Position numbers and translations under genes: made by a program
DNA from: Saccoglossus kowalevskii
Lineage: Eukaryota > Hemichordata > Enteropneusta > Harrimaniidae
Length of the DNA stretch: 64,000 nucleotides
Direction of reading: 5' to 3'
NCBI RefSeq assembly: GCF_000003605.2
Contig: NW_003129869.1
Location: 81,925-145,924 of the forward strand
Part shown: in pieces, positions 2,953 through 60,479 of the stretch
How the letters are laid out: each line of letters opens with the position of its first letter
How positions within the stretch are numbered: the stretch's first letter is position 1
The notes under the pieces: generated by a model
What the model was told of the DNA's origin: nothing
Databases searched by the model: none
What the model saw: only the letters and a program-made list of their open reading frames with translations

Positions 2953-4800
2953 GTTGTCTAAATTGCTGAATTACAAAAACAACATTATTCTCACTGACAG
3001 TAAAACCACTCAACTAGTCAATATTACATGTATGTCATACAGGGCAACAACTGTTGCTATAAATTGGAATGCAAAGAGATAATTGTTGGCTCTAACCTGA
3101 AGGGATATTGTTAAAACTCCAATTCAGCTCATGAATATTCATGAGACACCCTCATTTTGAGATGAAAGTCTACAAGATGAATTTTCAAGTGTTCCCCATC
3201 TTCTTATCGTTATAAAAAAACACTACTACTGCAAATGAGACATCAGTTAATAATCCCGGTACAATGTTGAACTTTCACCTCTCATAAATATTATGCCCCC
3301 AAGTTTGTTAACAAGTTGCAAAGAAATGACAATATTTGGGAATTAAAGCGGTCGTAAACGTGCATATGGCTTACAGATGTCTGGAGGAAAACCCGTCTAA
3401 GAATCTCATACAGAGTCATTCTTTTCAAATAATACTTAAAAAGAATGTTTATAAACACTGCACTCAATTTAGTTGAATGCCGTAGGCAAAGGAGAGGTCA
3501 AGACCCCTCTCCAGCTCATTTGGGCATTTTACTCTTTGACATTTTCTGAAGGTTGTTATTTTTTTTTTCAAATTGGCAAATTTTTTTGAGGGATTTGGAA
3601 TGTTTATTCAGCCTTGTATTGTGATTATAGCCACTACTACAATTTGTTATTTTAATGAAAGTTAGAACAGATTAAAACCATTCCAATGATTTCATCAGAA
3701 TTTTGATACTTTATATTAGGGGTCAACTAATCTAATTGATTGCTTCTAAAAACCAACGGGTTTCATAACATAATTTATTTTCCATATTTGTTCAAAAGTT
3801 TTGTCTGGAAAATTATGTCCATTTCGTCCAAAAATGTGTTTAGCAGGAATAAAGTTGAGAGTCAACACCCTCAATATTGTGAGTTGCATGTGTTCATTTT
3901 AATCTCTGTAATACATAAGACTTCAATATGAGGAAACAGTTTTTTGTCAAATAGAGTACCATAAAGTAAATTAAACTTTGTTTTGAAATTCTAGACAATG
4001 AAAGAACACCGCAATTAAAGTACAACAATGACTTCCAGCCCAGCCAGACTTTTTTACACCAATATTTTGAAGTAATTTTTCGCCAAGTAATATATGTATT
4101 TCTTTCTTTTATATATTCCTCAAATCAATGGAGCAAAGAGCACCAAATTACAGATCTGAAAGTCTCTTACTGATATGAAAGAAAGGAGCCAATTATTCCA
4201 TGGAAATCCACTACTCATTGCGGTAAGGGTTCATTAGCATAAATTGGAACAAGAACAGTATACATGACTGAGAGTTTCTTTCACTCTTCATCTATGCCGA
4301 AAGTACTGCATGCACTATGATAAGCGCTCAAGCTACTTGTATTTATATCGCTGAATGAATAGTCAGCTGAGAGGATCAAAAATACAGCTTCCCTGACGCA
4401 AAGCGAACCTGCCAATTGCTACACTACGTGCTTATGTAAAAATCACAGATGCAAGCTTCTATATATAAGTGTAACTGCTTCCCGGAGAACTTTGTGATTC
4501 TATAGAATTTTTACATGACACACATTTGCGAGCATCAGTGTAATTATAAAATTCGCTGTATTTTGTGAGCAGACAGTAATTTATTCATAACAAAAGCAGT
4601 TCTCCAAATTTCTAGCTATCAATCCATTTGGTGGGGCCATGTACAAAACTGCAGACAAGTTTGTAGTCATTTGGCAGCACAAGAACAAGGGTGTTGTAAA
4701 CCAACATTTAAAAGTGCCAGCCTTTATGGTTTATTATATAACCTTGGAGGAGGGTGGGAGGAGGTTGGGAGAAGGCAGGTTTATAAAGATAATTACTCAC
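2953..4800. other. Intron 12 sequence next to exon 12, no gene seen
   Basis: AT-rich sequence with no recognised exon or repeat. Roughly 4190-4460 is more complex and could be regulatory, but no specific signal stands out. Confidence 0.45.
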
Positions 4801-4884
4801 CTTTCCAAACCGTGTTGCGTAGGACCCTGTTAAGAGTGAATGGAATATGATGATAGTTTCATCTAAATCCCAGACAAATACTCT
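4801..4884 (-). CDS. eya: eya exon 12: start of Eya phosphatase domain
   Basis: 84 nt, phase 0 to 0, residues 395-422. It opens [14 protein letters not shown] and ends SYATRFGK, nearly identical to human EYA proteins. The DLDET at 400-404 is HAD motif I: the first Asp is the phosphatase nucleophile and the second the general acid, both intact. The acceptor is a pyrimidine tract ending cag after 4884, and the donor is AAG|gtgagt at 4800. No exon encoding the next conserved block (vertebrate DPPTSV...LRMEEMIFNLADTHLFF) was found in 1-4800, so intron 12 is longer than 4.8 kb. Confidence 0.97.
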
Positions 4885-7800
4885 CTGAAAAAGAAAACAA
4901 TATTTGTTAGTTTTGCTTCTTATGATACACTTCATCACACATTTTTTCCTCTAAATTTTGCATACCAGTAAAGTATGGTAGAATGAGGGAATGTTTGTTT
5001 TCTGTTTGAGAGTATGTTCTGTTTTGATTTAATCCGCATAACCATAAAATTGTTTTCATTTATCTAGGCAAAAAATAAAAAAAATTTCTCTTTAACACTC
5101 ATGTGACAGATATGATACAATGAGGAGCCAGTTTATTTATGTGATTCCTTCCATTATTCCCATGCACAAAAATGACAGTCAGCCATCTTGAATCAGATTC
5201 TGAAACAGATGCATTGTGCAAATGAGTTACATGATGTATGTGTAAAATTGCTCAATTTTGATGAATTTTTAGCACTAAAATGGCTGCCATTCAGCCATCT
5301 TTAATTGGGTCAGGAAATTGCATGTGCATATGTATGATATGATGTGCAATGTGTGTGTAAAGTGTGTCTGAGATGCATGGGGGTAAAAAGTCCCTGTTTT
5401 TAGACTACAAATCCATTTTACTTTACTTCAAAGGAATCAATTATTTTCAAAAACAAAAAGACTGTACCTCTAAATCATTTTCCGGCGGGGGAGAAGGATT
5501 GTTCCGCCTTCCCCTCGCAGCAGGCCTTCGATTATTTCCACCTCGATTCCTCGACGCCCTCCCATTTTCTTCTGACTTGACGATAGTATCAGCTGGAATC
5601 GTGGCCATTTGAGGATCAACTGAGGAAAAAACCAACCGAATAAACAGTTAATAATAATAATAATAATAATAATACAAGCACATTATCCATTTTCTGAAGA
5701 GACTGGTCATGCATCTCCACAGACAACAATCTAAAACAAAATGTGATAAATAATTTTTCTTTAATGTAGATAATTACGAAAGCCCTAATAATTAACAAAC
5801 GACTAATTTTAGCATCCTTACATTTATGACCTTTTCCAAAATGATGAAAATCAATTACGGAGACTTTAACATCCCGATTGGTAGCCGACTATGAGAGTTG
5901 AACCAAAATTGTTAGAAGACCACGAGAGTTGAACCCTAATTAGTAGCCGACCATGAGAATTGAACCTAAATCAGTAGCCGAGCATGAGAGTTGAACCCTA
6001 AAATCTCTCTGTTGCTAAGAATGTTACTATTTCAAAACCACATCATTTCACGCTAGGATTTTCATCAGTTCTTACCTTCATTTGGCAAAGGAGCGAGTTG
6101 ATATGTTGTCGTTGTTGCCGGCAATACTGTTCCTGTATTATTGAGAGCGGTACTGTTACCTGGCATGTATGGACTGTATCCTTGTGAGCTGTAGTATTGG
6201 TAGCCAGGCTGGGTATAGGCTGTTCCATACGCTGTACCATAGTCCACACCCTAAAATGTACAAGCAAACTTAGACCTCAAACACAAAGAAATATCATAGT
6301 CTCTGTATTGTATAGCAACTGTCACGATTAGGAGATATTACTAAAAATAGAAACTGATGTAACCATATAATGCTGTTCAGCACATTAAACAGATAACATG
6401 CACAGACAGAAACAACAATTTCCACACTAACTGCTTTAATAATTCACAGTAACTTTTTAAGGAAGTCTATTATAAGCCTGAACAAAGCCAAAAAGTTATA
6501 AATATGCATGTCACTATTTCATTGTTACTTAAAGCGAGAGGGTTGTCACCTGCACACGCAGGTACATATACATATAGTGAAATTGAGTCCCAAGCGACGA
6601 TAACAACACACGCTAAAAAAAGATCACGGGTATACGCTTGTTTGTAAACAATGACACGCTACGGCCATCTGACGCATGCGCAGGTGACGACTCCCCCGCT
6701 TTAATAAGTCAAATGAAAAAAATGCTGATTAGCTGAATTGACATTTGAGGACACAAAAGAAGGAAGAATTGTGAAAGAGGCTTGCAAACTAGTAAGGCCA
6801 GGAAAATAAATTCTCTGTTTCTCGTTTCATGGAAATATTTAAATGAGGCGAGGTGATTTTTTTTTTTTTTTGAATACTGAGCTAAAATGGGGTGAATTTG
6901 AGACAAATGCGAGTACAAGCTCATTTTGGAAGGAAAAAAAAGTTTGAGGCGTACCAATATCAAAAGTGTTGAGTATTAAGGACATTAGAAAAAACAAAAA
7001 TGCCTGCCAGTTTGCTATTTGAGATTTGAAAAGGTTGACGACGCGATACGTTTCATTTATTCCAAATTTCCATTATTGGACAACATTCGAACAGGAACTA
7101 AAAATCATTTGAAATTAATTTCAGACCAAACTGGGCATAAGTTATGAAAACACTGGGTCTGTGGAAAGTGACAAGACATGATGTTGACATTCAAGGGATT
7201 GAAAAACCAAAGTACGTGATTACAGTTACAGTTTACAATCAAGATAAATATAGTGACAGACATACGTTTGATTCACTCACCGATCCAACTTGCGGCGTTG
7301 TATTATACGAGTGCGCAGTGGGAGTACTTGAATTTGTTGCCGTGGGATAAGTGTATCCACTTGTTGTGTAACTACTGCCTGAAAGTGTGAGGAGGAAAGA
7401 AATTACAAACATACTGCAACATCTAAGAAGTCACAATCACCAGAGAACCAGAAATACACCAACAGTTACAGAAAGTTTTTAACACCCCTAATCCTACACC
7501 TCCTTTTTAAAAAATGAAACCTTCCAAAAAAGTCCCTCCTTTTATGGAATAATGGAATATTCCATTCTTTATAGGGGTGGACCGTTTTTGTTATGTGCAG
7601 AGGGATAGGAAAAGACATAGAAGAGTTTTACAAGTGACTACATGATGATCCATGATTCTGACCTTGCACTTGATACAGAGCATTTTGTCCACTTTGGGTA
7701 TAGGACGGCAGATAATTACTTTGCCCTTGGTGTGTTAATGTGTTATTCTTTATTGCCATGGTGCCTCTACCTGGAAGAGCAATTAGTGATAATGAAGTCA

Positions 7801-10800
7801 TGACGACCACCGACAGACAGTACAGTTCGTCATCTTGGATATTCGATGATTCAAAATGGCCCGGTTGCATACCTGCATTGTGATTGGTTGACTGACTAAA
7901 TGGTGGATGGTGTAAGCATCATTGGCAACAACGGTAAGCTCTTATTGCAATTGGTTGTTAGATGGATGGACACCCTGACTTTAAAATTGTCCGATGTAGA
8001 CAAAAATAAAAAGCTCAAATTATTAAAATCCATATCGAGGGCATAAAGTAGAAAAAAGTAGCGCCATAACAACTGTTAGTTAGTGTTTGGTCAGTGGTCG
8101 GCATGATTACGAGAAACCCTAAACAAAGTTAATTTTGTATGCAAGGTTTTTTTTCAAATGATCAGATATTTAATAACATCGGAAACAGGAAACAAGTAGG
8201 GAGGAAGAAGTATGGCATAGGTATGCATGTTGCTGTGGAGGCATCGCATTTATGATCGACTGATTCTAGCTCTACATTTTGTGCAGGTTACAACATTGTC
8301 ATGTGAAAATACATAATATTTAGTGATGTCATACAAGAGTTTTGCATATTTTGATGTATTTTTCTATTATTTCATTGTTGATTAGCAAAAACTCCCACAT
8401 AGGGCAGCAACTTCCATATTAGGGCAGCAACTTCCATATTAGGGCAGTGACTCCCATATATGGACAATGACTCCCATATTTGGGCAGTAACACCCATATT
8501 AGGGCAGTGACTCCCATATTTCGGCAGTGACTCCCATGTTTGGGCAATAACACCCATATTTGGGCAGTGACTCCCATATTTGGGCAGTGACTCCCATATT
8601 TGGGCAGCACACCCACACTTATACCATTCACTCATTGCTTCTAAAATAAAGCTATGTGTATGAGAACTATAAACATGCTTCATAAAAAGATACAAAATCT
8701 AGATGTACAAAAACAGTGAAAGTCAGCTAGATTAAGCTTATTATACCATGTTGTCAGAATAACTACTAGTTTAACATGGTATTCAAGTTACTGAAAATTA
8801 AATTAAATAACTGGTCTTGAATTTAATGAACATAAATTCAAAATTGCAGTTATTATATCATGGATCATACTTAATATACAAGTTATTTTGACCGAAGACA
8901 TTTCTGTCTTTTACACAAGAGCATTTTCTACAAATAAAGCAAATGCATTCGTGTAAATATCTTCAATATGGAAGTGCTATGTACCAATGTGATGTTCAAA
9001 TCTTCTCACTTTTGAAATATAAATCATTTTGGGCATGCCACACAATGATTGACAAATAATTATTGAAATTCATTCTTTTTATGACTGTGCATAAGTCAGT
9101 TTCAGATTTTTTTTACTGGACGTTTTTATCCCTGCCTGGACAAGATACTGCATGAATCACATTGCCGTATGATCGGTTGGAATCCGAAAAGATTTGTCAG
9201 CCATCACATCGCTTGCTCAGGAGTTTCACAAATGCATTTAATAACACAACTAGCTGGGAACAAGGATGAACAAGATGGTGGATTTGATGACTTACTGAGA
9301 CAACTAGGTGGGAACAAGATGGTGGATGTAACAACAGGCAAAAAAATAAATAAAAAGGCTTTAGGCAGTGCGAACCGCTGCAGCGAGACCGGCGTAGGCG
9401 GTCAGGGCAACGAGTAGGCAGCCAATTTTGGATTGTAGCAGGCCATACGGCCGGCGGCCTGCTTTTAACGATACCCCTGCTGGCTGATGTCAGTTTCCCC
9501 CATTCATTTACATTGTAGCTGTCTGTGAAGGCTTTCAGCAGGAGACATTAAAATTTAAAATTCATGCCTCGCTGTTATGCAAACCTTGTGACCTTTAACT
9601 TATAAGTCATAAGCAAGTTTATCATCATTAAGAATCTAACTGTCATACTGACATCTACAGTGTCCACTGTTGTCATGGCGAAAAAAGAAATTGCTATGTG
9701 CGTTTTGTATGGATGGCAATACATTACAGTGTTTGTTAGCATCTAGAAACAATCTCCGCACAATACTTGTCCAGGCAGGATGCTCTTGGTCTGAATATTG
9801 AACATGTGATTTTCTGTTCACTGCGAGATCTTGCGTAATGCGTGAAAGGTGCAGATAGACCGAATGCCGTAAAAACAACATGATTTGATTTTAAACACCA
9901 ATCTTTGAGGAAGTGAAACTTGACCATCATCCCCATCATATTAATAAGTGTGGATATACCTTTTATATGATGATGTTTTAATGCCACTACAACACTATTA
10001 TCTTTGTTTGCCTGTTTTTATTTATCATTTCATGCACAAAGTAGGATCTCGTAGTGAACGGAAAATGACCTGATCCATACTCCACAAATCATTTTGATTG
10101 TGTGATTTTAGTAAGATCTTCAATTATGTCAATTACACTCCCTTATCTCCTCTTAGATACCAAGCCACAATTCTCTGACACAGATACAATCCAACCAACC
10201 AACCAACATAGTCTTCCATTTCCTCCAATTTAAAAAATCAACTTACCCGGTGCTCCATAGGGCCCTGGCTGTGTCAGCCCGTACGACGCTGCCTGTCCTG
10301 TTGTTTGCCCCGTTGCATAAGGATAAGTTGTTGTGTTGGCTGGCATGTATGCCGCCGTTCCCTGGTTCTGAGTTGTCTGGTAGTTCAGCGTATTACTACC
10401 TTGCGCCGACGGAGTCGGGATTATATGGGGGTAGGAATGGCTGGAAAATAAAAATATGAATAGATTAAGAATTTGAATAAGAATAGGCCACCAGTCAGCC
10501 ATTTGAATTTAATTCTGAAAAAATATGTTGCCCATATGTGTGCCTTCATATACTGTACTTGTGCCTAGTTTCAAAGAAATCAGTATGAGTAATTCAAAGA
10601 ATGGTGTTGAACCTGACACAGACATTGACAGGGAAGGAATGTTTATTTCCTTTTCCATCAGACTGTACAGCACTTTGCCCATAGTTACGTACACAGGTGA
10701 ACACATGCAGAGTTTCCATAAAAAATGCCAATATGGGTAGCACATTGACCAGTCACAGTGGAACAGTAACACACCAAGCAGTAGAACATATCGAACATGG

Positions 10801-13800
10801 TGGAACACAAACATTTTCCCCCTCACATATCCTTCATCTTGCATTTGTCACAGATGAAGAACAAAAACCAATAGCACCAAAAGATGATAAACATTCACAA
10901 AGACTGTCGGAGTGTATGATATGAAAAGTTTTTGAAAAGCTTACCTCAGATACATTTCGTTCTCGATACAGTAAAAGTATAGAAAGACGATTTGAAACAG
11001 ACTGACAGTAACCAACAGTCTGATCAGTTTTTGATCCTGCAAGAACACCTTGACTTATGACACTATTAAAGTCACATGACATATCACTACAATCTTTCAA
11101 TTTGATTGGATGGTTCTTACCTTGGAAAATATTGTGACGAATATTCTGATTTGGAGTGTCTGGAGTAACTCATATCCTGTTGCGTGTTTTGACTGCCAGA
11201 CCCTGAAAGGTGACGACATGAAGAAGTGATAACCCGAAAACCTAATATGTAGTTCACGAAAAAGTGACGACTATAAATTGGGTTTATCAGAGTCCAGCTA
11301 CCGATAATTAGACATTTATGAACGTGGTTGTGTGTGAGAACTGTGTCAAATGTCTCCTATGACATCATCATGCAATAAGCCAATGACGTCGGCTTTGAAC
11401 TGATGACAGTTGTACTAGAGGTAACAGGTGAGAGTGAGCAAAGGGTTTCTAAAGATAACAACACAGGCACTTGTAAGAAAAATGCATGATTTACCATCAA
11501 AAATTACATGTGGAAAAAAAAGAAGAAAATTTGAAATGATATTGTACAGTCTTGATAACAATGAATTTTTCTTAACAAACTGTAATAGCTAGAATAAATG
11601 GTACAATATTCATTTTCATCCTTTTGTCACCAGATACTTCCCCCCAAAGAAGTATAGTTGTGGCTACATTTTCTATAACTAGTCCAGACAGATAGAACAC
11701 GACTTTGCTGAAAATTTTGGAGAGCCATAAAAATCATATTTTTACCAAAATGCTTTTCAGTAAAGATGCACGAATTTCAAATATTTCGTGAAAAACAATA
11801 CAATTCTACAATATAAATGGTTCATTGTGATTAGAAACAAATTTTCTGGTCAGTATCATGTAGTTGGAGACACGTAAAGAAATGAACAAGAGATGCAATG
11901 ACAGCAACAAACTTTTGATTGCCAAGGACGACTTTTGTTACCTTTCACAAAATAAACCAATAGAAAAATAAGTTCATTTGTACAAAATTACAAAAATGTT
12001 AAAGAAAAATACACAAAAATGGGCAAAATATTAAGAAGAAATAAGTTTATTTTTTTATTCCATGAGTTGTATATTATGAATGTCTATGCTACAAAATTCA
12101 CAGCTATTAAAAGATATTATTTTGTATTGTTGGTGTTGGTAGTGACTGTATTAACCCCTGTTTATTTTCTTCCTTCAGAGATACCACTGTCATCAAATGT
12201 AATACATTTTGGACTTACTACATCACCCATTCTTTCAGAAAAGCTATCTTCCTCACATATAAAACTTTATGGTGATTCTAAAGTACCGGGATGATAGCTA
12301 CCGTACTCGACCACGTTAGCGCCCAGGGTCCTCAACTCATAAAATCAGGATTTTTTTAGGGGTGGGTGCTTTGCTGAATGTGACCCCGAATATAAAAATT
12401 GCGCAAAAGTGGGGGTGGGCGCTTGACCGGGCATGGGCGCTAACGCGGTCGAGGACGCTATTAGGTTGGTATTAATTAACTTACCTGAATAAATCTCTAT
12501 CGTGGTATTAGACCCACTGTAGTTAGTGTCAGTTGACACTGTATCATTCACTATTGGTTCTGTTTTTACTGTTGAAGAAGAGAAATAAAAAAAGGTTAGC
12601 TTTTAGGTTCAATCACTATTCATCAATACCAGACTGGATTCCAGAATACCAAGATGCTTCAACATCAAACACCACTGTACTGCAAATTATCTCCCCATGC
12701 ACTTACAATCCCACATCATGATTGGCCCAAAACTAAAGAATTCATTAGCTTTTAAAAACAACAGATCAAAACATAAACAATACAGATTTGCTTAAAGTCA
12801 TAGTTGCTATGGCAATGGGCAAGGGAAGAATGCCCTGTCACCACTTGTCCAACAAACAAAGTGGTCAGTCATTGTTTTTAATACGTAATTACAGATTACA
12901 CATTCAATATGTTGTCATTTGTAAAGATTCCAATCTTTAATCTGTTTTTAAGGGCTTAGAATGTCACAGATGTCATACTGTCACTCTTTAGATAAATCAC
13001 ACAGCTGTATTATTTTTACATAAGTTCAGTGGATCATATGCATGACCCCAAAATGTCACACATTATGGTACTTCTGGGGGTACAAAAATCTACTTTTACA
13101 GACATTACTCACATTATTACTTTCCCCATCAAAAGACTATAAGGGCATAGCACTCTTAATCACTCGCATCGCTTGCTGTGTTCATGAGAGCCATTTTTTT
13201 TTTTAGCTCCAAGGCCATTTTTCAATCGACAAGCCCGACTATAATTGAGAATTTCTCGTTTCAACAATCTGACATTGCAGAAATTGAGGTATAATACTGG
13301 AAACTATTGCTATTATCGGCCATCAATACTCCTAGTAAGTACCAGGATGTGTGACCTTTAGATACCATGAATAAAGTACCAGGATGTGTGACCTTTAGGG
13401 GTCATGAATACAGTACCAGGATGTGTGACCTTTAGGGGTCATGAATAAAGTACCAGGATGTGTGACCTTTAGAAACCATGAATAAAGTACCAGGATGTGT
13501 GACCTTTAGAAACCATGAATAAGACATATTTGTCAAAGCTGATCCAGAAACCAGGGGTAGCAGTTTTGGTGGACATGGTCTCTTTCAACAAGTATTTATG
13601 GTAATTACTTAAAGGGACATTAGCTGTATTCTTGATAAATAAATAAAAAAAATTTGCTTATGTCTAGAAGTAGAAGATGTTTGCATATGCATTGCATGAA
13701 CATTCTAGCATTTTATCCCCTGTATGAATCTATAGTAAAATGCAAACTAAAAATCTAGCATGTGATCTAAATGAGAAACTAAAGTTTCACTAAAATGATT

Positions 13801-16800
13801 TATAACTTATAGCGCCAAAGACATCGCATGGCACATATTAAAATTTGGTCCAAACACAGCTTTTTAGAAGGGTTGTCACATGGAATGGTTTCAGTGCTCA
13901 TACAAACCTTAGTAACTGAATTTATTTAGGTCAATAGTGATACCATAGCAAATGTACTAGAAATTCAATATAAAGAGGCAAATTGCAGTTGCGTTTGTAA
14001 AACGATGATGCAGATTATGTTGCCATGGAATAATAATATCTCAACCCTTTCCTTGCATTAGTCTGGTTTAAAAGTTAAAACCTATTAAAAATTCATGAAC
14101 AAATAAAATTGGGAGTAAATTTCACATTATTAATGGATCAAAAGCAAAAGACAAGGACATGCTGCAGCAAATTTACCACTTTGAGTAGGAAGATAAAAAA
14201 TAGTTGAAAGCTTTATCTGACGGGCAATATTCAATGCCGCTGAATCGTTAACCTGCGGCTACTATTGTATACAATGCACCAAGATATTGTAGACATCCGG
14301 ATAAGGTCCCAGAGGCATACTGCTTCGGCTTCCACATCTCTCTACCACAAAAAGAGCGATGCTTAATAAAAACCAGTGAACTTAGCGAAGATAATTGTAG
14401 CAGGACAGATTATGCAAATAAGAAATGGTTACATTTAAACGGGAGGTGGAAGGGTTGAAACTTCTTGGATGTTCTTTTGCAGGGAATGGTACATTTTGGG
14501 GTGAGGTGGGTGTGAGGTTGGTAGGAGGATTGGAACTTGATAGATGTTATATGCAGACATTGTTGATGAATGTAATTATAATATAAAGAAAGAAAGAATG
14601 AATTTGGCGGGGAGGGGGTTTAGAGATAGAACAGCTACATTCTACACACGAATAAGAACAGGTCAACAAAGATGCTGGCTTTTCTCTTCATTGGGACACT
14701 ACATTCTTATATATTTTTCTAGAAGTTTTTTTGTTAATTTTGGTCAAAATACTTATAATTCTACTTTGCCTACATGTTTTAAAAAATTTTTTGGGAAAAA
14801 AAGAAAAATAATGTGGATTTAATTTTTTGAACAGTGACAAACATGGACTATGGCACTCATACATTAAACTTACTTGAAGCAGTGGTCTGTACTGAGGCCC
14901 AGGCGTCAGGATTGCTAAGTATTGAATTATCTTCGGAGGTTGACATAGGACCCCTGTTACCTAGGTAACCAGAAAGTGAAGATTTTTTGAGCTATTGATA
15001 TTAAGACGCCAATTCCAATCAATCAGGGAATTTTTAATAAAACAAGATATCAGAACCATCCAATCACCAGAAATATGCAAATGAGAAATGCTAATTTTTG
15101 GGCAATCTAATCATCTGAGATATGCAAATGAGAAATGCTAATTTTAGGGCAATCCAATCATCTGAGATATGCAAATGAGAAATGCTAATTTTAGGGCAAT
15201 CCATTCATCTGAAATATGCAAATGAAACTGCTAATTTTAGGGCAATCCAATCATCTGAGATATGCAAATGAGAAATGCTAATTTTAGGGCAATCCATTCA
15301 TCTGAAATATGCAAATGAAACTGCTAATTTTAGGGCAATCCAATCATCTGAGATATGCAAATGAGAACTGCTAATTTTAGGACAACCAATCATCTGCAAA
15401 TAAAAAATGCTAATTTGAAGACTTTCTAATCACATGCAAAATGTAAATTAAAATGAGATCTAATTTGATGACAATGAAGTCACTTTTAATAGATATGCAT
15501 AATTTGCAGTTGAGTCAAAGCATATATGCAAAACAGAGTTGATACAAGCTGCTCTCTGATTGGTCAGACTGTTAGCAATTTGGGTTGGGTAGCCAATCAG
15601 ACACAATCTTATAGCTTCAGAGAGAAACATCCTACACATTATTATAAATCATGTTGATTTTTCTGGCAATAATAAATAAACTGCATGTACCTTCAGTGCC
15701 ATTGATGCATGACGTATTATCTGTGTTTTCTCGTTGTATTGGTGAATTTCCGTTCCCGCTATGGGGAGACTGAATTTCCATAGACCTATAAAAAAAAACA
15801 CCAAATTAAGTACACAAAAGTTTGACTGTCAACAAAAAGCATATTTAAACATTGCAAGAAATTATTACAGCAACAAAAAACGGAGGTACTGAAATACAAA
15901 TTTGAGGAACATGGTACATAACTGAACTGATACAGTTACCTAAACGATTTTAAAATACTTATACAAATAGGTTGCGAAAGATAATAACACGCAATAGAAT
16001 GAGAAAATGGGGTATGCTCAAAACAGTTGAGGCAATCCATGATGTTTTCAAGGACCTCAGATGAAAAGACGTCTGTAACAACCCCGAAGTGATAATTGCA
16101 TAATTGATGAACTACTGAACAAAATTCCCCAAGACACGGTAGACACAGTCATTTCTTTTCACTGGATATGTAAATCAATTATGAGTTATCGGTAGTACTA
16201 AATGAAGCGAATAAACATGTTATTCATTTTCAATACATTTTTTCTTCTTCAATAAAATAACAGAAAAAAAAAGATGTGTAATTTCAGGTACTTGCATCCA
16301 GCTCCTGCCTCTCTTTTGATTAAAGCTGAAAAGTCTGTATGTAATGTCTAAACTTGATATGAAATAATGATTTTGTGAGTCTTACTAAAAAAACAAAACA
16401 AAGAAAACGATGTGCTAAGATGTGATTCAAACATGGGATTATACCCATATAAGGTATGCACATATGGTCACATGATTTGTTTAATCCAATGAGGATGTCT
16501 GATACTGTATGATGACTTGTTTATTTGTGTGTGAATAACAACCTTCTGTTAGGAAATAATTAGTTATAATGCAGCCAATTAACTGCAGCTGGTTCTAGGC
16601 ATGCAAGGTCAAAATTCAGGAAAAGAAGGTGGAAAGTGGACATTGAGAGGATTTAAGATACAAAGACAAAAATTCTTAAGAGAAAATATAAAAAGATGAA
16701 AAACTCATGTTGTTTTCTAACTTTATGTATTTGTGTTCATTTTAGACATTATAGAATAAATTTGCCAAATTCTCTAAAGATCACAGAAGATTTATGTTTT

Positions 16801-19800
16801 TCAAGTTTTCTAACAATTTATTTTAGACAAAATCTATTTAAATTGTACAGAATAATGTGAATCAAAATTGAGAAGAATAACATAGACAGCTTTAATTTTT
16901 GTGAGAGATTTTCATAAGTCTGTGAAAATTGGGACATTTTGTAGCAGTGAACGATTGTTGCAAAATTTTACATTTATCATGAAATCACAAATAATAAGTA
17001 GCGATTTTAATACAATAATTTACAAATAAAGGATTGTCAAGTCAAAGTTCTTTTCACAATGTTCCCAAGTTGAGATTAATTATTTATTAACAGGATATGA
17101 CAGGGAGGGGAAGGATCACTAGGGGATTCCAAAACCATCTGTCAGTTTAAAAAACGAAAACAACTCCAGTCAGCCACCTGTTTGGCGGAACAGAGAACAA
17201 CGAACCATGTAAAAAAAATCTGGAATTCACAGTCGCTGTGAAGAAAAAATGATTTGGCTTGGTCTACTTCATTAAGTAGAATATTTGCTCTTGTTTGTTC
17301 TAGTATATGGAGCATGTCTAAGTCATCAATGCATGTTATACTTTGTCTTTTTCCTCCGGATTGACATTTTTTTGAAAAAGCTACATATTTGTCCTGTTTT
17401 TTTTTTCTGTTTTTTTTTTGTTGAGAGCAGCTGCATATACTGAATTTGCTTTTGAAACTGGACCACACAGACAGTCATATTTTGTGGACTGATGACAACA
17501 TTCTTTTGTGTTCAAGCAGAAGGCACAAAGTAAAGACCAGTCAGCACTCAACAAAGAAAATTCTGACAAGATACTTTAAATACCTACCATATGAATGTTT
17601 GTCAGTGGGTTTTTGTGAAAGGCAACAAACACGTGTATTTCCCGTGGATAAACTTAGTTTTCATGTCACCAAGATCAGATCAAGCAAAATTTTGTTGTTT
17701 AAAGCAAGTTTTCAGAAACAAATCAAAAGCATGCATATAAACAAATGTTGAATTGATCGCCAACACTTGGGTTTGATGAAAAACTTTGAAATACAAATTT
17801 TGAGGGAACATTTCCCACAAATTTTATAAAGAATTGTAGGACATAATGTCAGAGATACTTCTTGTAATATCACATGGACATTTAAGAGTTATGACTTCTA
17901 AATTGCAAAGGGGCAAGACTACATGTAGTTTCAGTTTCAGGCTCTTATGAGTAATTGCAAAGTCGTATCACCACCAAACTTCCTCCTGCCCCTCAAAGTC
18001 ATATCACTGCCAAACTTCCTCTTGCCCCTCAAAGTCATATCACCAAGCGTCCTCCTGCCCCTCAAGTCATATCACTACCAAGTGTTCTCCTGCCCCTCAA
18101 AGTCATATCACTGCCTAACAACCTCCTGCCCCTCAAAATCATATCACTACCAAGTGTCCTCCTGCCCCTCAAAATCATATCACCAAGCATCTTCCTGCCC
18201 CTTAAGTCATATCACTACCAAGTGTCCCCCATGTCCCTCAAATTCATATCACCAAGCGTCCTCCTGCCCCTCAAAGTCATATCACCAAGCGTCCTCCTGC
18301 CCCTCAAAGTCATATCACTTAGCGTCCTCCTGCCCCTTAAAGTCATATCACCAAGCGTTCTCCTTCCCCTTAAAGTCATATCACCAAGCGTTCTCCTTCT
18401 CCTTAAAGTCATATCACCAAGCGTCCACCTGCTCCTCAAAGTCCAGCCAGCTAGCTTGGATTACTAATATTGCAACCTTTATCCCTTCATCAACAAGCAC
18501 TGACAAAATTAATATTGAAAACCAAAATGACATGCAAAATGATTCCCCAAAATCTAACTGAATTAGAAACTTAACATTTCTTCAAATATGCCTGATAAAC
18601 AGTTGTCAAAAAGAAAAAAAAAACACATGAAAGGAATTCATTAATGTCAAGCTGAGATTGGAATGGATGGTTCCCAAGGCCTGATAATTTAAAAGAGATG
18701 CATCAATTTAAAAGGATCACCGAAGCAAAACAATTAGATGACATCTCTTAGCAAGGTGAACTATTTGTTTACAGAGTGTTGGAAGTAACACCTAATTTAA
18801 CAAAACTTGTAACTAAAACAAAAACAAAAATTTTCAATTCTTGGAAGAAGAAGAACAAAGTTGTTAAGATGCTCAAAAGAGGCCACTTTTGAAATCACAG
18901 AGATGGAAAACCTTTATGTTCTTTAAGTGAGACATAACAGAAAAATCAAGCCTGAAAGCTCAATGGAAAAGCAATTTGGACACTTTTTCAAAATGAGAAA
19001 AACTGGACACCTGACTGACCACTGATTGAAAAGAAAAAGTTTGTTTTGTTAATGTTTTGGGATGTATTGTTGGTTTTATCTTGTCAATAGAGTCTTTTCA
19101 GCAGCTGCTGAGAAGTCAATTTTTTGTCTGTCCTAGGCACAAAGCCATGTCACCTGAGAAGCGCTATACCACACCTTAATACAATCGTCAATCTTGCCCA
19201 ATCAGACAGCTTCGGTAACACTTGGCTACCTCTCTATACAGATCTTATCGCAGGCTATTAACCAATACACAATGATGCTCCCCTGCCCCCGGAGAACATG
19301 GCGGTCACTTTAGAAATGATCCTTTTTCATTATTTTCACCAAATTACACCTCCGATAAGTGTACAATGATGTTGTTTACACCTTCAAGTGGTAAAGCACT
19401 TTGCAAGATAACCTGACAAATTGTATTTAAGGTGTATCTCGATTGACTGTATTCTTCATGCCCGCTGCACCGATTACCAATCCGGTGATATTATCGTCTG
19501 CCGCATCTAATCGCACATGACTGAATTGTCACAACTAAATATTCATGCTTTATTCATACCCAATGAAAGTTCATGTACATTTCGGAAAGAGTTTTGCAGA
19601 TAGTACTGTCCATGTGGATGGTGAACAAAATGGATCGTATCTGTATGTAGTGCAAACTGCTTTGCTTCAATTGAATAGAATTCTATTCCCAATTGCTTTC
19701 AAGAATTGTTCAAAAGAAATGAAAGAGAATATCATACAGTTTATGGACTGGGAGAACTCTCACTTTTGTATTCCAAAGATCCAAATATGGCATTCATTTT

Positions 19801-22800
19801 CATTTTAATTAACTTTATTAAATTCATATCTAAGCCATGCATGACCTCAACTTAAATAATTACTTATAGTTTTATTTGTAACAGATCTAAATTTTATGAT
19901 TGCTCATTAGAGGGTTTAGATTAACGAGGCATGCAACAACTTACAAAAGACATGAACAGTGTGCTTGAAAATGATCCTGAAAATGCAGTTGTACGACAGT
20001 ACATAGCTTCGTTGCATTGTATTCGATATGCGACATATACAACGCATTTAAAATACATTGTTTATTTACGTGAAATCCAAACACACACTGCACTATGACT
20101 GTAGTGATTTACATTTAGCTAGCTCCCAAAACTGCCACATATCTTAATTGTTGATGACAATGACGCTCTCCTTAAAAATAATATTAGTGAGCTTGGAAGT
20201 TAAGTTACTCTCAGACTGTACATGTATGGTAAAATACTGGACAAGCCATATTTTTGTAATATTTTGAAACAGAACAGTCATAAAGTCAACTAAACAGATC
20301 TTTGCTTATTATAAAATAAAATAAAACAAGAACACCACAATAATTCCTGGGAGTCACAAAATTTGTATCAGTGATAAGTTCGTAGGGGTTCAAAAGACGA
20401 CTTTCCTAAAAAAAACTTCATGAGCACCGTTAAATCATCAAGTCATGACAATTTCTAGGAGTGAGAATAAAATGGTTAGAATACAGTATGTTTTATGTAC
20501 TGTTCACAATAAATAGACATGTCACTTCTATCATTAATCATTGTAACAAATGCCAAAGCAGTCATTTAAGGTTCATTTATATTGTGTCAGGTGTTATTTT
20601 TATAAAATACAACATGTACATACTATTTAGGGGCATCAAGTGTTATTATGATGTGTGATAGGTCACAGAACATATAGACTCAAAATTTCACCACAAATTT
20701 GACTAAGTGACTGCTCAATTTTCCAGGATGTTGTGAAGCAAGGCCTGGTAAGATGAAAATAAATTGGGAGGAATATTTCAGTTATTATAGCACAACTAGC
20801 GGCGAACTAGAATTTGATGATATACTGAGACAACTAGCTGGGAACAAGGATGAACAAGATGGTGGATTTGATGACTTACTGAGACAACTAGCTGGGAACA
20901 AGGATGAACAAGATGTTGGATCTGATGACTTACTGAGACAACTAGCTGGGAACAAGGATGAACAAGATGTTGGATCTGATGACTTACTGAGACAACTAGG
21001 TGGGAACAAGACGGTGGATCTGATGACTTACTGAGACAACTAGCTGGGAACAAGATGGTGGATCTGATGACTTACTGAGACAACTAGGTGGGAACAAGAT
21101 GGTGGATCTGATGACTTACTGTGTCAACTAGCTGGGAACAAGGATGAACAAGATGGTGGATTTGATGACTTACTGAGATAACTAGCTGGGAACAAGGATG
21201 AACAAGATGGTGGATCTGATGACTTACTGCGACAACTAGCTATGAACAAGGATGAATAATATGGGCTTTTCAAGCATAGTGGCCACTGCTTGAATTTGTG
21301 GGAAACAAAATGATCAATTAATACACCTTGCATGTGCAAAGTAGCCCTCGCCAAGATTGTATTACAGAGCACTTTCTCAATGTTGTTTCATTTTTATTTT
21401 TTACACATTTTTTACCTTGTAACTCCACTGCTATGATTATCTGAAACTGCCTCACTCTCGTGTCTTGCTCTTTTTATCTGTAAAAAAATAAACAAATACA
21501 AACATAAATTAAAAAAAAAAATGGAAATTTCACTTTGATCTGTGAAAAGTAGTACAGACAACAATTTGAACAAAATTCATGAAGTTTTAGGTTGTTAATT
21601 TAGTTTCATTTTGAAGAGAAACAAAGTACATTGTTTTCAAAAATGTGTGTATTACAAAAAATAATGTCATTTGCTTCTGGCCAAAAATTCAAGTTGAAAA
21701 AAAGTTAAGTATATAGCATACATGTACATGTATGTAGAAGTAAGTGAAGTCAGAATAAAAAAGAAATCAATTTACATGCATGTATAACAAGTCTTAAATC
21801 TAATCTTCACAAATGCATCTATCGACTTGGCAAAAAAACAAAAAAAAACAATTTAATAGAAACTAACAATGGAACAAACTGTGTTGTTATAAGATTCACA
21901 AAATAATGATTGAAAATTATTAAAATTCAGTGACACCGGCAAAAAAATAATGTTACGCTGTTGAAGGGTATCCAGCTGTGCATAGTTCCCACAGTAGTTT
22001 GGTACACATGACTAACAAAGAGAAATTGATTTCTTTCTTTTATTTGCTACAATGAGCAGCATGTTACCTATATATTTATGTGATGGACCCACGCTGTGGC
22101 CACATCACCCTAAAAATGGAAACAACACTCTCAAAGCTAAATAGTGAGAAGCCATTGGACGCAAAAAAAGAACCGGAAACGACAACAACGTAAGTGCAGG
22201 CAGATCAATACTTGTAACTGACCAATCAGGAGGACTTATTTTTTTGTTAGCTAATCGGAATTGGAGAAGATTTTGATGGTTGCATAATAGAATTATGCGA
22301 AGAAATGTGCAATAAATTTACTGTTTCTTTGTGTCCTGGGGAGGGGGAGGGGAGGGGAAGGGCAGTTTCATCCCACAAAACACATGATAAATCAAAAATA
22401 AACCAAGTCAATTTACATGCTAATAGTGATATTACGCTCAAAGGAAGTGTGTCAGAAACATAGATGTCGTCCCTATTAAATACAACTAAACAGACAACAT
22501 GACATTTGTACCCAAGTACCTGCACATTTCAATTTTCTACAAAATGTATTGACGAAACTATTAGAAAAAAACTATTTTGTTGGAACAGAATAAATAAACA
22601 TTTTATATGATATCGGTTCATCTGGGAGAAGCTGAGCATACACAACATATGTGTATGTTTGGTTAAAGGTAAATAGAGAAATACGGGTGTGCAATTTTCA
22701 AGTATTCCACTGAAAACGACAACACTGAAAACTTGCATAAAGGTATGGAATTCATATTGTCCAAATGTGACGTTTAATTTGAAATATAATTTATTACTTT

Positions 22801-25800
22801 GATACCACCATTTTAGATTGAATAACAACAATTACTCAATTGGCACAATTACACTAACTCGTAATAATATCAACTAAAACTTATTCCCGAAAGATTGATA
22901 GGGTAATATTTCAGCCATTTATCCATGACTGTAACTGCAAACTGTAAACTGTAAATCAACCAACATGCTTAGATGTCATGCTTTATTGGCATAAATTAGC
23001 ATATGATCGCAATAATTGTTCTGTAATTGTTTGGCACACAGAGTTGGTCATGTGATACTTATTCACTCAATTTTAGTTTGTGAGTACGGGTAATACTTAT
23101 AACCCATGCCGTCACTCGTATAATAACCTCATTGAACATGCACATCCTACATCTTCATCAATCATACTTGTTTTGACCTGCATATACCAAGACAACCTGT
23201 GAATACCATGGCAACCTGAGTACTAGTATACCATGGTAACCTGCATATATCAAAACAACCTGTGTATACCATGGTAACCTGCGTATACCAAGACAACCTG
23301 TGAATACTATGGTAACCTGAGTATAACATGGTAACCTGCATATACCAAGACAACCCGAGTATAACATGGCAACCTGTGTATGTCATGTACCATGGTAACC
23401 TGCATATACCAAAACAACCTGTGAATACTATGGTAACCTGCGTATACCAAGACAACCTGCGAATACTATGGTAACCTGCGTATACCATGGTAACCTGTGT
23501 ATACCAAGACAACCTAACCTGTGAATACTATGACAACCTGAGTATACCATGGTAACATGCATAAACCAAGACAACCTGTGAATACTATGGTAACCTGCGT
23601 ATACCATGGTAACCTGCGAAAACCATGGTAACCTGCATATACCAAGACAACCTGAGTATACCATGGTAACCTGCATATACTTAGACAACCTGTGAATACT
23701 ATGGCAACCTGAGTATACCATGGTATCCTGTGAATACCATGGTATCCTGTGAATACCATGGTAACCTGTGTATACTGTGAAAACTACGTTAAACAAACAA
23801 ACATGGATTACTAGAGAAATTGTTTATTGTTTTCTTTGAATATTTTCAGTTACTGGCATAACATCTAATGAGGTAGTGTGAAATGTGTTATTATATTGTG
23901 ATGAAAATCAAATTACCATTAAAATATTGCCAATCATCTGAAATAAATCTTTTAAATAATCTGTATTACAAAATTATCCTGCTTTGAAATCTAAATTCTA
24001 CAAAATGCATGCATTTTAAGTTTTTAGCAAGAGAGGAGCAGAAAGAACAGTACAACATTTAACACTAATCTAGGTTAGAGTGACAGCAATTTTTAATATG
24101 CTTTTATGTACTTGAAAAACTAGCACAACAACAATATATCGCAAGATTTCAATACAAAACCTACTGCTAAACTAGGGCGATGAAACGACTGGCATAACCC
24201 TCCTTCATCATGAAAAAAAATGTAATTATTGATGGCCATGCGTTGATTCACACGGAACACAAAAGAAATTACACAACTATCAATCATCAAACGCAATTAT
24301 TGTATTTCATAAGCATCGATAAAACATCTTTTGTTGGGATCTCTCTCACATCAGAATTTATTTGCAGTTCTCGATCACCTTGGTTAGCACATTTAAACAA
24401 GGAGTGTACTCTAGAACACTTTTCCTGTAATAATGGTAGTTATACTGTCAGGATGTAAGCTTCCCGTACTGTTTGTCTACCTGCGGGGCACGAAAATCCA
24501 CAGTATGAGACATTTGTGATGTTGATGTTACTAGCTGCCTATCCATAGCCTTAAACAAACCATCACAATATTGGTCAAACAACCTAATGTAGACCAACTT
24601 AGCAGACAATCCTTTGTAGTGTTATGTTTTTTTATTTGATTTTTTTATATCAGGATAATTTAAAATTGGTATTTATATGCACACATTTTGGGCTACCCCC
24701 CGGTAGTTACTGTTATTTGCTGCCTGAAAAATATATACAGCTGTATTCAAAACATCAATTTGTGGGGGGATGCAGTTTTTACAGTCAACAAAATGACCAA
24801 ATTGGTGAGCCTGTGATGAGAAAAACCAGGCAAATTGTACCGTAAGCATTCTAATAAAGTGCGTGTCCAAAAATATTGTACACTGGATTATTAAAATAAG
24901 ACCATACACTCATGTCAGCTATTTACGTAATTTAGACAGATAAGCGCATGTGTAAGTAATAAAGCAATTACGATACTTTTAATAGTGTGTGCTATTTCAC
25001 TATTAATTGAAATATGAGTTTTGGATACTTTACTTTTTGGGCTGAAAAAGTTAGAAATTGTTATTGATATTTTAATCCTAATAATGCATGTAGTTAAATA
25101 CGTTTTTTACAAAATAAACCTTCATAATTTTACCAATACTTGTCGTCCAAAATCTTGATTCGAATCTACCATATTTGCTCCATTAGAAGTGCATGTAAAC
25201 CAGCAGTTGCATTTCTTGTACTTTAAAAACTGTAAACCGCTTCAATTTCAGGAAGCAAATTTGCGAGTCAGTGAAAATTTGGAAATTTAGTAGTTGAGTC
25301 ATACAACATGGAGTCTCATTGACTTCAATGTCTTCACGAGTGCCACACCATTCTGAAATCACGAACATTTCTGGTAGTGAAAATTGAATGGCAAACAGTC
25401 TGCACATGTGTTACTAATATTAAAACAAGTAAGGTACAGACAAAAGAAAATATAGAGGTGGGCAAAATATTGGTGGTACAATATTCAATAGTTTAAAGCT
25501 GGTGAATAATAAAAAGTAAAAATCTTACAATGTGCCTAAGCATGAAATACTCGCCTTTTAACAAACAGAAATTTTAAACAGCAAAAAAAAACATAATATC
25601 TGAAAAAATATACAGAAAAGAACAACAAACCTTAAGTTTGTGCATTTGTTGATATTTGCAGAAGCCATAAGGATACAATAAAAGCTTGGTAACATGGAAT
25701 CCAAATTGATACTACCGACAAAACCCGCACTCTGTTTAACAGGACTGAGCGAAGCAAGATTTCAATGTGGATCCTATATATCATATCACACATCCAAACA

Positions 25801-43800: not shown

Positions 43801-46800
43801 TACATCTCTAGCTCAATTTAAACTGGAGCCTATTAGAACATTAGCTCTTCAATTCTCAGGGCTTTTACGTTTTTACTACATAATGGGCATACAGGTCACA
43901 ACGTGGATGACAGAGTCTCTAAGGAGAAGAGAGAGAGGAAGAAAGAGCGAGCTCTTTATAAGAATTCAACCGTTTATTTCTTCCAACGAGGCACTTCATA
44001 GATGCACTGTGGAAAAGATAATTTCTAAAACGCAATAAATAAATTTATCAAAATGTCTAACTTGTACAATGCCTACATTTTTCGGTTTATTTTTTTTCCG
44101 CATATTTGCCTAAAGTAAAGTTGTTTGTGATCTCTAAAGAAAAACAAATCCTGTCCTTGATTGGACAAAAAGAAAACTTACCAAAAAAAACAGTTACAAA
44201 TAGAATATGGCTCAATTACTTGGCTATTTATTTGTCAATGACGCCCACCATCAGTCAGACAAACAGCCCTGATTCATTTCTATTGATTCATTATTTTTAC
44301 CCTATTCATTGACAAGACAGTTAGTCAGATTTGCAGCACGGCTTACAAACAATTGAAACGTTTTTTCATTCGGTCAACCGACAAATGTGGGTACTTTGCA
44401 TATTCAAGTGTTTAGATCAGAATTAATAATCTTTCCTTCTCCATGGCAATCAATTTAATTGTATCCCCCCCCCCCCAAATAAAAAAACAACAACTTTAAA
44501 TGAGAGCATCATGAGGCATACTGCCCTCTGGAGATGTAATTTGACAGAAATGCCAAAGAACTGTTTTTTTTTTTTTTAAATATGTGCTTTTCTTGACACC
44601 ACACATTGTATGTAAGAGTACTAGTACTACTTTTGTTTGTAAATCTGAACATTTTTGCATGAGCAAAAAAAAAATGAAATTATCTAGCTCAAGAGCATGA
44701 GAATTCAAAAATTACCTAAACCATAATCACATTGAACGAACAGACTGAAATTAACTACAGTAATCAGTTTAGTAGTTCTTGCTAGGGACTTTCACAATTA
44801 GATGATTTAATGAACAAAAATTTTCAAAAGTGACTACAGCGCTACGTCTTAAATCTCCAATGAAATGTTGACCACTAGAAAAATGGCTGTGGCTTCTTTG
44901 TCTACAAAACTGTTTGCAACACAACAAAATTGTGTAGTTTTCAACCAAAAAATACCCTCAAAAAAAAAATTCTCATGAAAATGAAGCAGTTACAGTTTTC
45001 TCAAAATACTGTAAAATTCTTTATTTTCACTTAGAATTAATTTTAACTATTTTCGCTGAAGGAATAATTCAGTGAAAATAAAATCAAGTGAATATTCTTT
45101 TTTTCCTATATTTCACATTTAACTCATCAAAAAACAGTGAAAATATAATCCAAAGAAAACACCCAAAAAGTCTTCCCAGCTAAAATTAATTCCAGCTAAA
45201 ATAAAGTATTTCTCAGTATATGATACACGCACAGTTCCCCAAATCATGTTTATTTAGATATATGCTGACCATAATAAACTCAATACTGTATCTTACCTCT
45301 GTGCCATCAGCGCACAACGTGGTATGAAGGTCGGACAATACAAAACACATTCCAGGGTAGAATCGGTAACGTAATTACAAGAACATAGACAATTACAAAT
45401 TAGGAAAGACACAGTTATCCATTATAGTCAAAGTAACTACATGGGGAAAAACACATAGATTTTCATTAAAGCAGATAGAAAATTGTTTTAGCATAAATTG
45501 CCCTGTAAACTCACCTAATAAAATTACCTAGGCATCCCAAGTGACTGAAGCTTCAACAATGATGAACCTCCAATGAAATTGACTAGACAATCAAGCCAAG
45601 GAGGAGTTCCATGGCGATTTAATGCTCTGCTGCATAACAGTGATGATAGCTATCTTACATGCATTTAATCTCTGCCCGACTAGGTGATGTGTTTGTGACA
45701 TGCACTGTAACATATCAATTTATTGTAGCTGTAGCACTCCTAGGAATCCCTAGTTTAGATTGCTTGTCTTTACAACAATTAAAGTTGTACTCTTGAGATC
45801 ATTCCTATAGCTGTATTGTAGTATTGGGGATATTACGTGAAATATTTGATGGAATGAGTATGAATTTCTCCCTGAATTCTGAATTTAGAGTAGAGTATAT
45901 GTGAATTTATACTGTGTTGGAAAATAACATTTAAAAATACAACCAAATTGATATAACTAAAATCGAACATAAAAACAGTCAAACAAAAGTCATAGCGTTG
46001 CAGTATGAAAAAATTCCCACAATGCATATGAAAGTAATCCCACAATGCAGTATGAAAAATCCCCATGAAGCAGTAAGAAAAAATCCCCACAAAGCAGTAT
46101 GAAGTATAAAAAAATCCCCACAAAGCAGTACAAGAAGTATTACCACAAAGCAGTATGAAAAAATTCCCACAATGCAGTATGAAAAAATTCCCACAATGCA
46201 GTATGAAAAAATTCCCACAATGCAGTATGAAAGTATTCCCACAATGCAGTATGAAAAGTATTCCCACAATGCAGTATGAAAAGTATTCCCACAATGCAGT
46301 ATGAAAAGTATTCCCACAAGGCAGTATGAAAGTGTTCCCACAATGCAGTATGAAAAGTTTTCCCACAAAGCAGTATGAAAAATACCCACAAAGCAGTATG
46401 AAAGTATGAAAGTACGGGTATTCCAACAAAGCAGTATGAAAAAATCCCCACAAAACTGTATGAAGTATGAAAGTATTCCCACAAAGCAGTATGAAAAATC
46501 CCCACGAAGCAGTATGAACAAGCCATGCATGGCACAGTCCCCGTTAGTTATCGAATTTAAGATATATAGTTTTGTTTATAGTAATATAGCTGGAATATAA
46601 CCATGTGAGGAATATGATTATGATGATTGTTTAATGATTGACATTTGTATCTGATAATCAAACAATTACTTGTCCATATTGAGAGATATTGCTCTGGAAC
46701 AGCATTAGTTAAAACAAAATCAGCCATTTTGAATACATGTATATATCTATAACATGATGTATAAAGAATAAATAAAATTTGAATATAATCAGTCAAAGCA

Positions 46801-59855: not shown

Positions 59856-60130
59856 TCAGCCAATCAAAACTGCATACTACATCAGCCAATCAAAGACCAC
59901 ATAAAATATCAGCCAATCATAGACTTTATACTACATCACCAAACGAAAAACCACACACCGTACTACATCACCAAACGAAAAGCCGCATACTACATCACCA
60001 AACGAAAAACTGCATACTACATCACCAAACAAAAAAACTGCATACTACATCACCAAACGAAAAACTGCATACTACATCACCAAACGAAAAACCGCATATT
60101 ACATCAGCCAATTACAGACTGCATACTACA
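59856..60130. repeat. 26-27-bp minisatellite, about 10 copies
   Basis: Unit actgcatactacatcaccaa followed by acgaaaa. The first and last units instead carry ATCAGCCAATCA, a CCAAT-box-like core. Overlapping plus-strand frames are repeat artefacts. Upstream of exon 1. Confidence 0.92.
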
Positions 60131-60479
60131 TGTATATCATAATCTGAACAAAATTCTCGAAGTGTTAGTTGTCAGAGCTCTGTCTTCGCAATGAAACTAT
60201 TTTCAGTTCCATCAAGATCTGGAAATAACTGTTTGATTGTTGTCAAGTTTTAATCTATAGCAGGGTATTATATTTCAACGCAGCACCAAAGCAGATTAAA
60301 AATCCCCAATTCCATGCAAACTCAATTTCTGCCCTTGTGACTCCTTAACAAACCTGATTTCGCAGAATAAAAGCATTAATTTGACTTGCCATGTGCTCAA
60401 GACCTAAATGGAAGGCTGTTAAAGAGATAACATATTTTTTAGAAATAACAAAAAAACACCAATCAAGCTTCGTGAAGAG

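Follow-up and report, generated by a model that had tools for sequence, protein, structure and literature searches.

A small coding exon before the KTEP motif of a Saccoglossus kowalevskii eya gene and its probable counterpart in human EYA4

Introduction

According to a review, EYA1 is modified by SUMO1 (small ubiquitin-like modifier 1) at K43 and K146, with hampered transcriptional activity (PMC11155398). An intron border of EYA1 lies close to the first of these lysines: the variant c.125-169T>C has been placed in intron 3 (PMC3696009; the passage does not name the transcript), which means that an exon begins at base 2 of codon 42. Here we describe the corresponding junction in an eya gene of Saccoglossus kowalevskii, the 5' part of which lies on the minus strand of a 64-kb stretch of DNA, referred to below as the window. 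At this junction the gene has an additional small exon, exon 4, which would be placed directly before a predicted SUMO site. In the human EYA1 sequence used for the comparisons, K43 is the lysine of VKTEP.

The borders of human EYA4 can be collected from published variants. The variant c.84-2A>G is assigned to intron 3 and c.222_223del to exon 5 (PMC9109401), whereas c.208+1del (PMC9495667) means that exon 4 of EYA4 ends at c.208, in phase 1. A further variant, c.278T>C, is assigned to exon 6, and the genomic positions listed for c.222 (133769262) and c.278 (133777694) (PMC7046659) are 8,432 bases apart for 56 coding bases. Downstream of these, c.580+1 lies in intron 8 (PMC9109401, PMC7046659), and c.804 and c.1107 are the last bases of exons 10 and 12 (PMC7148344). 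What is said below of EYA1 and EYA4 exons refers to the passages and variant tables of the papers cited, in the numbering used there. The EYA4 protein letters used here agree with 47 of the 47 residues that could be drawn from such tables and passages, which cover selected variants.

Results and discussion

Exons 3 to 11 of the S. kowalevskii gene were rebuilt from the reading frame and splice sites and compared with the human EYA genes. Exon 3 (15691..15785, minus strand; 95 nucleotides (nt), phase 2 in and 1 out) encodes SMEIQ...NGTE and finishes with AAT GGC ACT GAA G, the last G being the first base of a codon, at AATGGCACTGAAG/GTACAT, where the slash marks the border between exon and intron. 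Exon 5 (12485..12568, minus strand; 84 nt, phase 1-1) extends from CAACAG/TAAAAACAGAACC to TTCAG/GTAAGT and starts with TA AAA ACA GAA. Between these two is the extra exon, exon 4 (14874..14960, minus strand; 87 nt, phase 1-1), which is bordered by TTACCTAG/GTAACAGGGG on its acceptor side and by GCTTCAA/GTAAGT on its donor side. The product reads NGTE-V-KTEP if exon 4 is skipped and NGTEG...ASI-KTEP if it is kept. Given that exon 5b, described below, is included, both splice products are open as far as the EYA domain, and the modelled exons together encode 386 residues, or 357 if exon 4 is left out. The 29 residues added by exon 4 are rich in serine and threonine and stand directly before the KTEP SUMO site. 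Like a cassette exon, exon 4 has a length divisible by three and equal phases at its two ends, and its neighbours join in frame. An alternative AG seven bases inside the exon was rejected; its use would leave 80 nt and break the frame, and it scores 0.1 against 4.6 for the acceptor of the model. An earlier reading of the window, made from its letters only and called the sequence-only reading here, had given the span 12485..15785, the sequences at the exon junctions and the 87-nt phase 1-1 exon 4, all of which are borne out on the minus strand. Its claim that skipping of exon 4 restores NGTEVKTEP in frame, at the phase-1 junction used by EYA1, is correct as well.

Exon 4 is very likely a real coding exon. 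Splice sites were scored with a hand-written, untrained matrix. On this scale the acceptor and the donor of exon 4 reach 4.6 and 4.8, and those of the other nine exons range over 1.5-7.4 and 0.9-8.8, respectively. Within the 3.1-kb intron between exons 3 and 5, exon 4 is the only open phase 1-1 candidate of 45-200 nt whose two site scores sum to 6 or more. When both strands of the 64 kb were scanned at a threshold of 9.3, which was chosen just below the score of exon 4 itself, exon 5 was the one candidate to appear besides exon 4. Among 300 first-order Markov copies of this intron, 7 contained an equally good candidate and 2 contained one in which both sites were as good. The GC content of exon 4 is 0.48, a value reached by 3.5% of 907 intronic segments of 87 nt. 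A 29-residue query over most of exon 4 (positions 14967-14881 of the window) matched the 572-Mb genome at one position (E <= 0.001).

Several possible sources of such an exon were considered and rejected. A blastn comparison of exon 4 and short flanks with the window returned only the exon itself, its own 14-bp palindrome and matches of 10-16 bp. As no repeat copies of exon 4 occur in the window and its query matched the genome once, nothing suggests that it was recently exonised out of a repeat. It does not appear to be a duplicate of exon 3 or exon 5 either, as the local alignment scores were equalled by 473 and 474 of 1000 shuffles, respectively. No second phase 1-1 candidate scoring at least 6, which could have been a mutually exclusive partner, occurs in the intron. 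The mutually exclusive duplicated exons described for the phosphatase domain of EYA4 (PMC13429693, PMC13196872) are also a case of alternative splicing in an EYA gene, but they lie in a different place and arose by tandem duplication, whereas exon 4 here is unlike exon 3 or exon 5. An 87-nt novel exon of mouse Eya4, tNE-26 (PMC4111849), was not equated with exon 4 in spite of its length; as described there, its predicted effect is a shortened protein, and it adjoins exons listed with a different 5' untranslated region.

The modelled product contains two psi-K-x-E sites, [I/V]KTE at the start of exon 5 and VKSE in exon 10. The first of these is a predicted SUMO site in both splice forms, as IKTE when exon 4 is included and as VKTE when it is skipped; the codon before the lysine is ATA (isoleucine) in the former and GTA (valine) in the latter. 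The TA at the start of exon 5 gives the codon ahead of the lysine the form NTA, which always encodes valine, isoleucine or leucine, so that the motif is kept whatever exon precedes it. It had been proposed that K-T-E survives either way, and it does, as follows from the TA start of exon 5 and the genetic code. Survival of the motif thus depends on exon 5 and the code and does not require selection on exon 4.

Two observations concern the SUMO sites more generally. Exon 7 reads MAIKNN at the place where EYA1 has the K146 SUMO motif; that motif is absent here, and VKSE in exon 10 is present instead. Exon 5 is symmetrical too (84 nt, 1-1), and its skipping would delete the KTEP SUMO site in frame.

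The junction may first be compared with that of human EYA1. The exon 3-4 junction of EYA1 has the same nine residues and the same phase-1 split codon as the form of the S. kowalevskii gene in which exon 4 is skipped. In the printed numbering of EYA1, intron 3 at c.124/125 coincides with the NGTE-V-KTEP exon-exon junction with nothing in between, whereas the gene here has exon 4 (PMC3696009). The EYA1 junction invoked in the sequence-only reading finds support in print in both the c.125 border of intron 3 and the SUMOylated K43.

Human EYA4 compares differently, in that its exon 5, like exon 4 here, is a separate exon between the NGT[E/G] junction and the exon that encodes VKTEP. It is an exon of its own at the phase-1 junction after NGT[E/G] and before KTEP, as a counterpart of exon 4 should be. 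The EYA4 borders at c.84, c.208, c.580, c.804 and c.1107 match introns of the S. kowalevskii gene in place and in phase (2, 1, 1, 0 and 0, respectively); exon 3 here has a phase-2 start before SMEIQ, as human EYA4 has at c.84 before SMEMQ. Between c.208 and c.580 EYA4 has exons 5-8, and the gene here has exon 4, exon 5, exon 5b (11121..11202; 82 nt, phase 1 in and 2 out) and exon 6 (10247..10440; 194 nt, ending ...GAPG), which makes four on each side only with exon 4 included. The blocks that follow match as well, EYA4 exons 9-10 with exon 7 (7663..7770; 108 nt, ending ...YQVQ) and exon 8 (7281..7378; 98 nt), and EYA4 exons 11-12 with exon 9 (6076..6250; 175 nt) and exon 10 (5468..5619; 152 nt, with the second SUMO-type motif VKSE), all on the minus strand. 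With exon 11 (4801..4884, minus strand; 84 nt), at which the EYA domain starts, the ten exons line up one for one with EYA4 exons 4-13, provided that exons 4 and 5b are both counted. The anatomy and frames at the junction, its common position and phase in the two genes and the equal exon count between shared introns are plain from these comparisons.

We propose that exon 4 probably corresponds in position to human EYA4 exon 5, both lying at the same ancient phase-1 intron between NGT[E/G] and the KTEP exon, and that it predates the split and was lost from the EYA1 form. Common descent of the two exons, as such, is likely. An exon would have been present at this junction before this lineage and the vertebrates parted; it would have been retained here and in EYA4, and it would be missing from the EYA1 form that is numbered in the literature. 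Since the site is occupied here and in EYA4 and empty in EYA1, common descent needs one loss. In the S. kowalevskii protein, exon 4 may lengthen the N-terminal activation region just before the KTEP SUMO site. These comparisons qualify what had been read from the sequence. The junction recreated by skipping had been called the vertebrate one, which is true of the EYA1 form; EYA4, however, is interrupted there by an exon of its own, so that uninterrupted NGTEVKTEP is the EYA1 form and not the general vertebrate form. The suggestion that exon 4 is a lineage-specific cassette is weakened, as the corresponding phase-1 junction of human EYA4 holds an exon too.

The pairing of exons includes exon 5b, which was placed between exons 5 and 6 because the frame demands an exon there that is entered in phase 1 and left in phase 2. 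Of the candidates listed, it alone links exons 5 and 6 in frame and has scores of 1 or more at both sites. Its end aligns with SSNDYTSQMYSAKPYAHIL of human EYA3, and the product continues as EYA3 does. The sequence-only reading did not mention this exon.

We assign the gene to the eya family as an EYA1/EYA4-like member. Exon 11 matches TIGR01658 (E 1.2e-11) and EYA2 and EYA3 chains in PDB, and two further EYA-domain exons were found 10-20 kb past the low end of the window (L003), with E values of 8.9e-36 and 2e-9 against TIGR01658. Because the EYA-domain exons were scored singly, their 44.9, 124.1 and 37.6 bits fall below the cut-off of 195.3 that TIGR01658 sets for whole proteins. These hits fit the C-terminal EYA domain with its DxDxT motif (WDLDETI) that marks the family. 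The other family trait, a PST/Tyr-rich N-terminal region with the exon structure of EYA genes, is matched by the five intron positions and phases shared with human EYA4 and by the alignment of the modelled product to EYA3 from residue 98 onward.

It is possible, though on balance somewhat doubtful, that exon 4 is a regulated cassette left out in certain tissues or stages, with an NGTEVKTEP form and a longer form that would differ in the action of SUMO or cofactors on the activation region; such regulation would fit either history of the exon. The symmetrical 1-1 phase, with the frame kept on skipping, is consistent with this, but exons 5, 7 and 11 are symmetrical as well and the symmetry of exon 4 alone therefore tells little. 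Of the ten acceptors, which score 1.5-7.4, only one is weaker than that of exon 4 (4.6), yet both splice sites of exon 4 lie inside the range of the other exons of this gene. Among eight regulator motifs counted within 300 nt of exon 4, only downstream TCTT, which is PTB-like, stands out, with 6 occurrences against 2.4 expected. A CELF-type motif was found twice against 0.9 expected, the counts for Nova and MBNL were near expectation, and Rbfox and QKI motifs were absent from the same 300 nt. The DNA itself thus gives no indication of skipping. For human EYA4, one paper places all of its truncating variants but one, in exon 19, in exons that every isoform contains (PMC7046659). Since the exon 5 variant is among them, this statement speaks against skipping of exon 5 in EYA4 and suggests that the exon is not widely known as a cassette. 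The parts of the literature searched for EYA4 exon 5 and N-terminal splicing contained no report of exon 5 skipping. Likewise, the portions of the literature on Eya isoforms in amphioxus and on Eya intron positions in Lophotrochozoa that were covered yielded nothing on this exon, and a literature search with six EYA peptides found no paper.

It is less likely that the two exons are independent gains, with exon 4 having arisen here by exonisation in the ancient phase-1 intron and EYA4 exon 5 separately in vertebrates. Several points nevertheless weigh in favor of separate gains and against common descent. The alignment of EYA4 exon 5 with exon 4 falls short of significance: over a stretch of 28 residues, 600-716 of 5000 shuffles scored as well under four settings, and over 23 residues, 297-489 of 5000 did so under three settings. 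The scores of other exons were exceeded or equalled rarely (0 of 5000 shuffles for exon 3, 1 for exon 5 with KTEP and 21 for exon 5b), but the test is a weak one because exon 5 without KTEP also fails it (893 of 5000). EYA4 exon 5 is shorter than the 87-nt exon here, at 15-69 nt (its end lies at c.223-c.277, and 69 nt is reached if it is c.277), and EYA4 exon 6, in contrast to exon 5 here, starts at least 5 codons ahead of VKTEP. In the printed numbering, EYA1 is without an exon at the junction. In addition, the pairing of ten exons leans on exon 5b, which was added from the frame requirement. Since phase 1-1 exons can be added harmlessly, the coincidence of two gains would be a mild one. Against separate gains, the two exons fall at the same junction among the nine that were modelled, the exon counts match only when exon 4 is counted, and exon 4 has neither repeat copies in the window nor a second place in the genome. 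One scan each of viral_contigs and genome_contigs, which are non-animal collections, confirmed no eya relative.

If exon 4 is shared with EYA4, as we favor, the NGTEVKTEP junction of EYA1 would not be the norm for vertebrates but one of two ancient states, and the simple loss of an exon beside a known regulatory lysine would set EYA1 apart from EYA4. If it was gained independently, exon 4 would be an ordinary exon of the variable N-terminal region.

A more far-reaching version of common descent can be imagined, to which we attach little probability. The exon at this junction could be a regulated eya module as old as the Bilateria, in which a Ser/Thr-rich acidic insert before a K43-type site tunes SUMO-dependent repression of the activation region. 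The TA start of exon 5 would then preserve the motif, and the vertebrate paralogues would have split the two states, EYA1 without the exon and EYA4 with it.

It is highly improbable that exon 4 is a chance pseudo-exon, never spliced in, in a gene that joins exon 3 to exon 5 like EYA1: such joining does give NGTEVKTEP exactly and an 87-nt open frame is by itself not rare, but the simulated introns seldom held a candidate as good (7 of 300, or 2 of 300 for both sites), the one other candidate in the whole window at that threshold is the true exon 5, the GC content is exon-like and EYA4 too carries an exon there.

Other features of the region

A perfect 14-bp palindrome, GTTACCTAGGTAAC (14956..14969, without strand assignment), spans the acceptor of exon 4. 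An RNA hairpin at this site was considered and rejected; a stem of 5 bp is possible, but the fold has a z of 0.65 and is equalled or bettered by 147 of 200 shuffles. The palindrome also fits an X-box-like pattern of RFX. The pattern occurs at this one place, on both strands, where 0.14 would be expected, and 2 of 100 shuffles reach two. We did not build on this reading because the window holds 13 perfect 14-bp palindromes.

The intron just before exon 4 contains a 47-bp tandem repeat in about 7 copies (15058..15396, without strand assignment), which holds 7 of the 10 ATGCAAAT octamers of the window. Minisatellite arrays were seen at 1-564, 13337-13522, 17958-18443, 20815-21264, 23226-23775, 45999-46518 and 59866-60131, and several of the arrays in the window have at least one reading frame that stays open for long distances. 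Beyond the window, the eya region includes a long run of N (L003, about 4100-5730). A minisatellite with the unit ISITKDGRH (L002, 2725-3849), open over 374 codons, lies between exon 11 and the next EYA-domain exons found.

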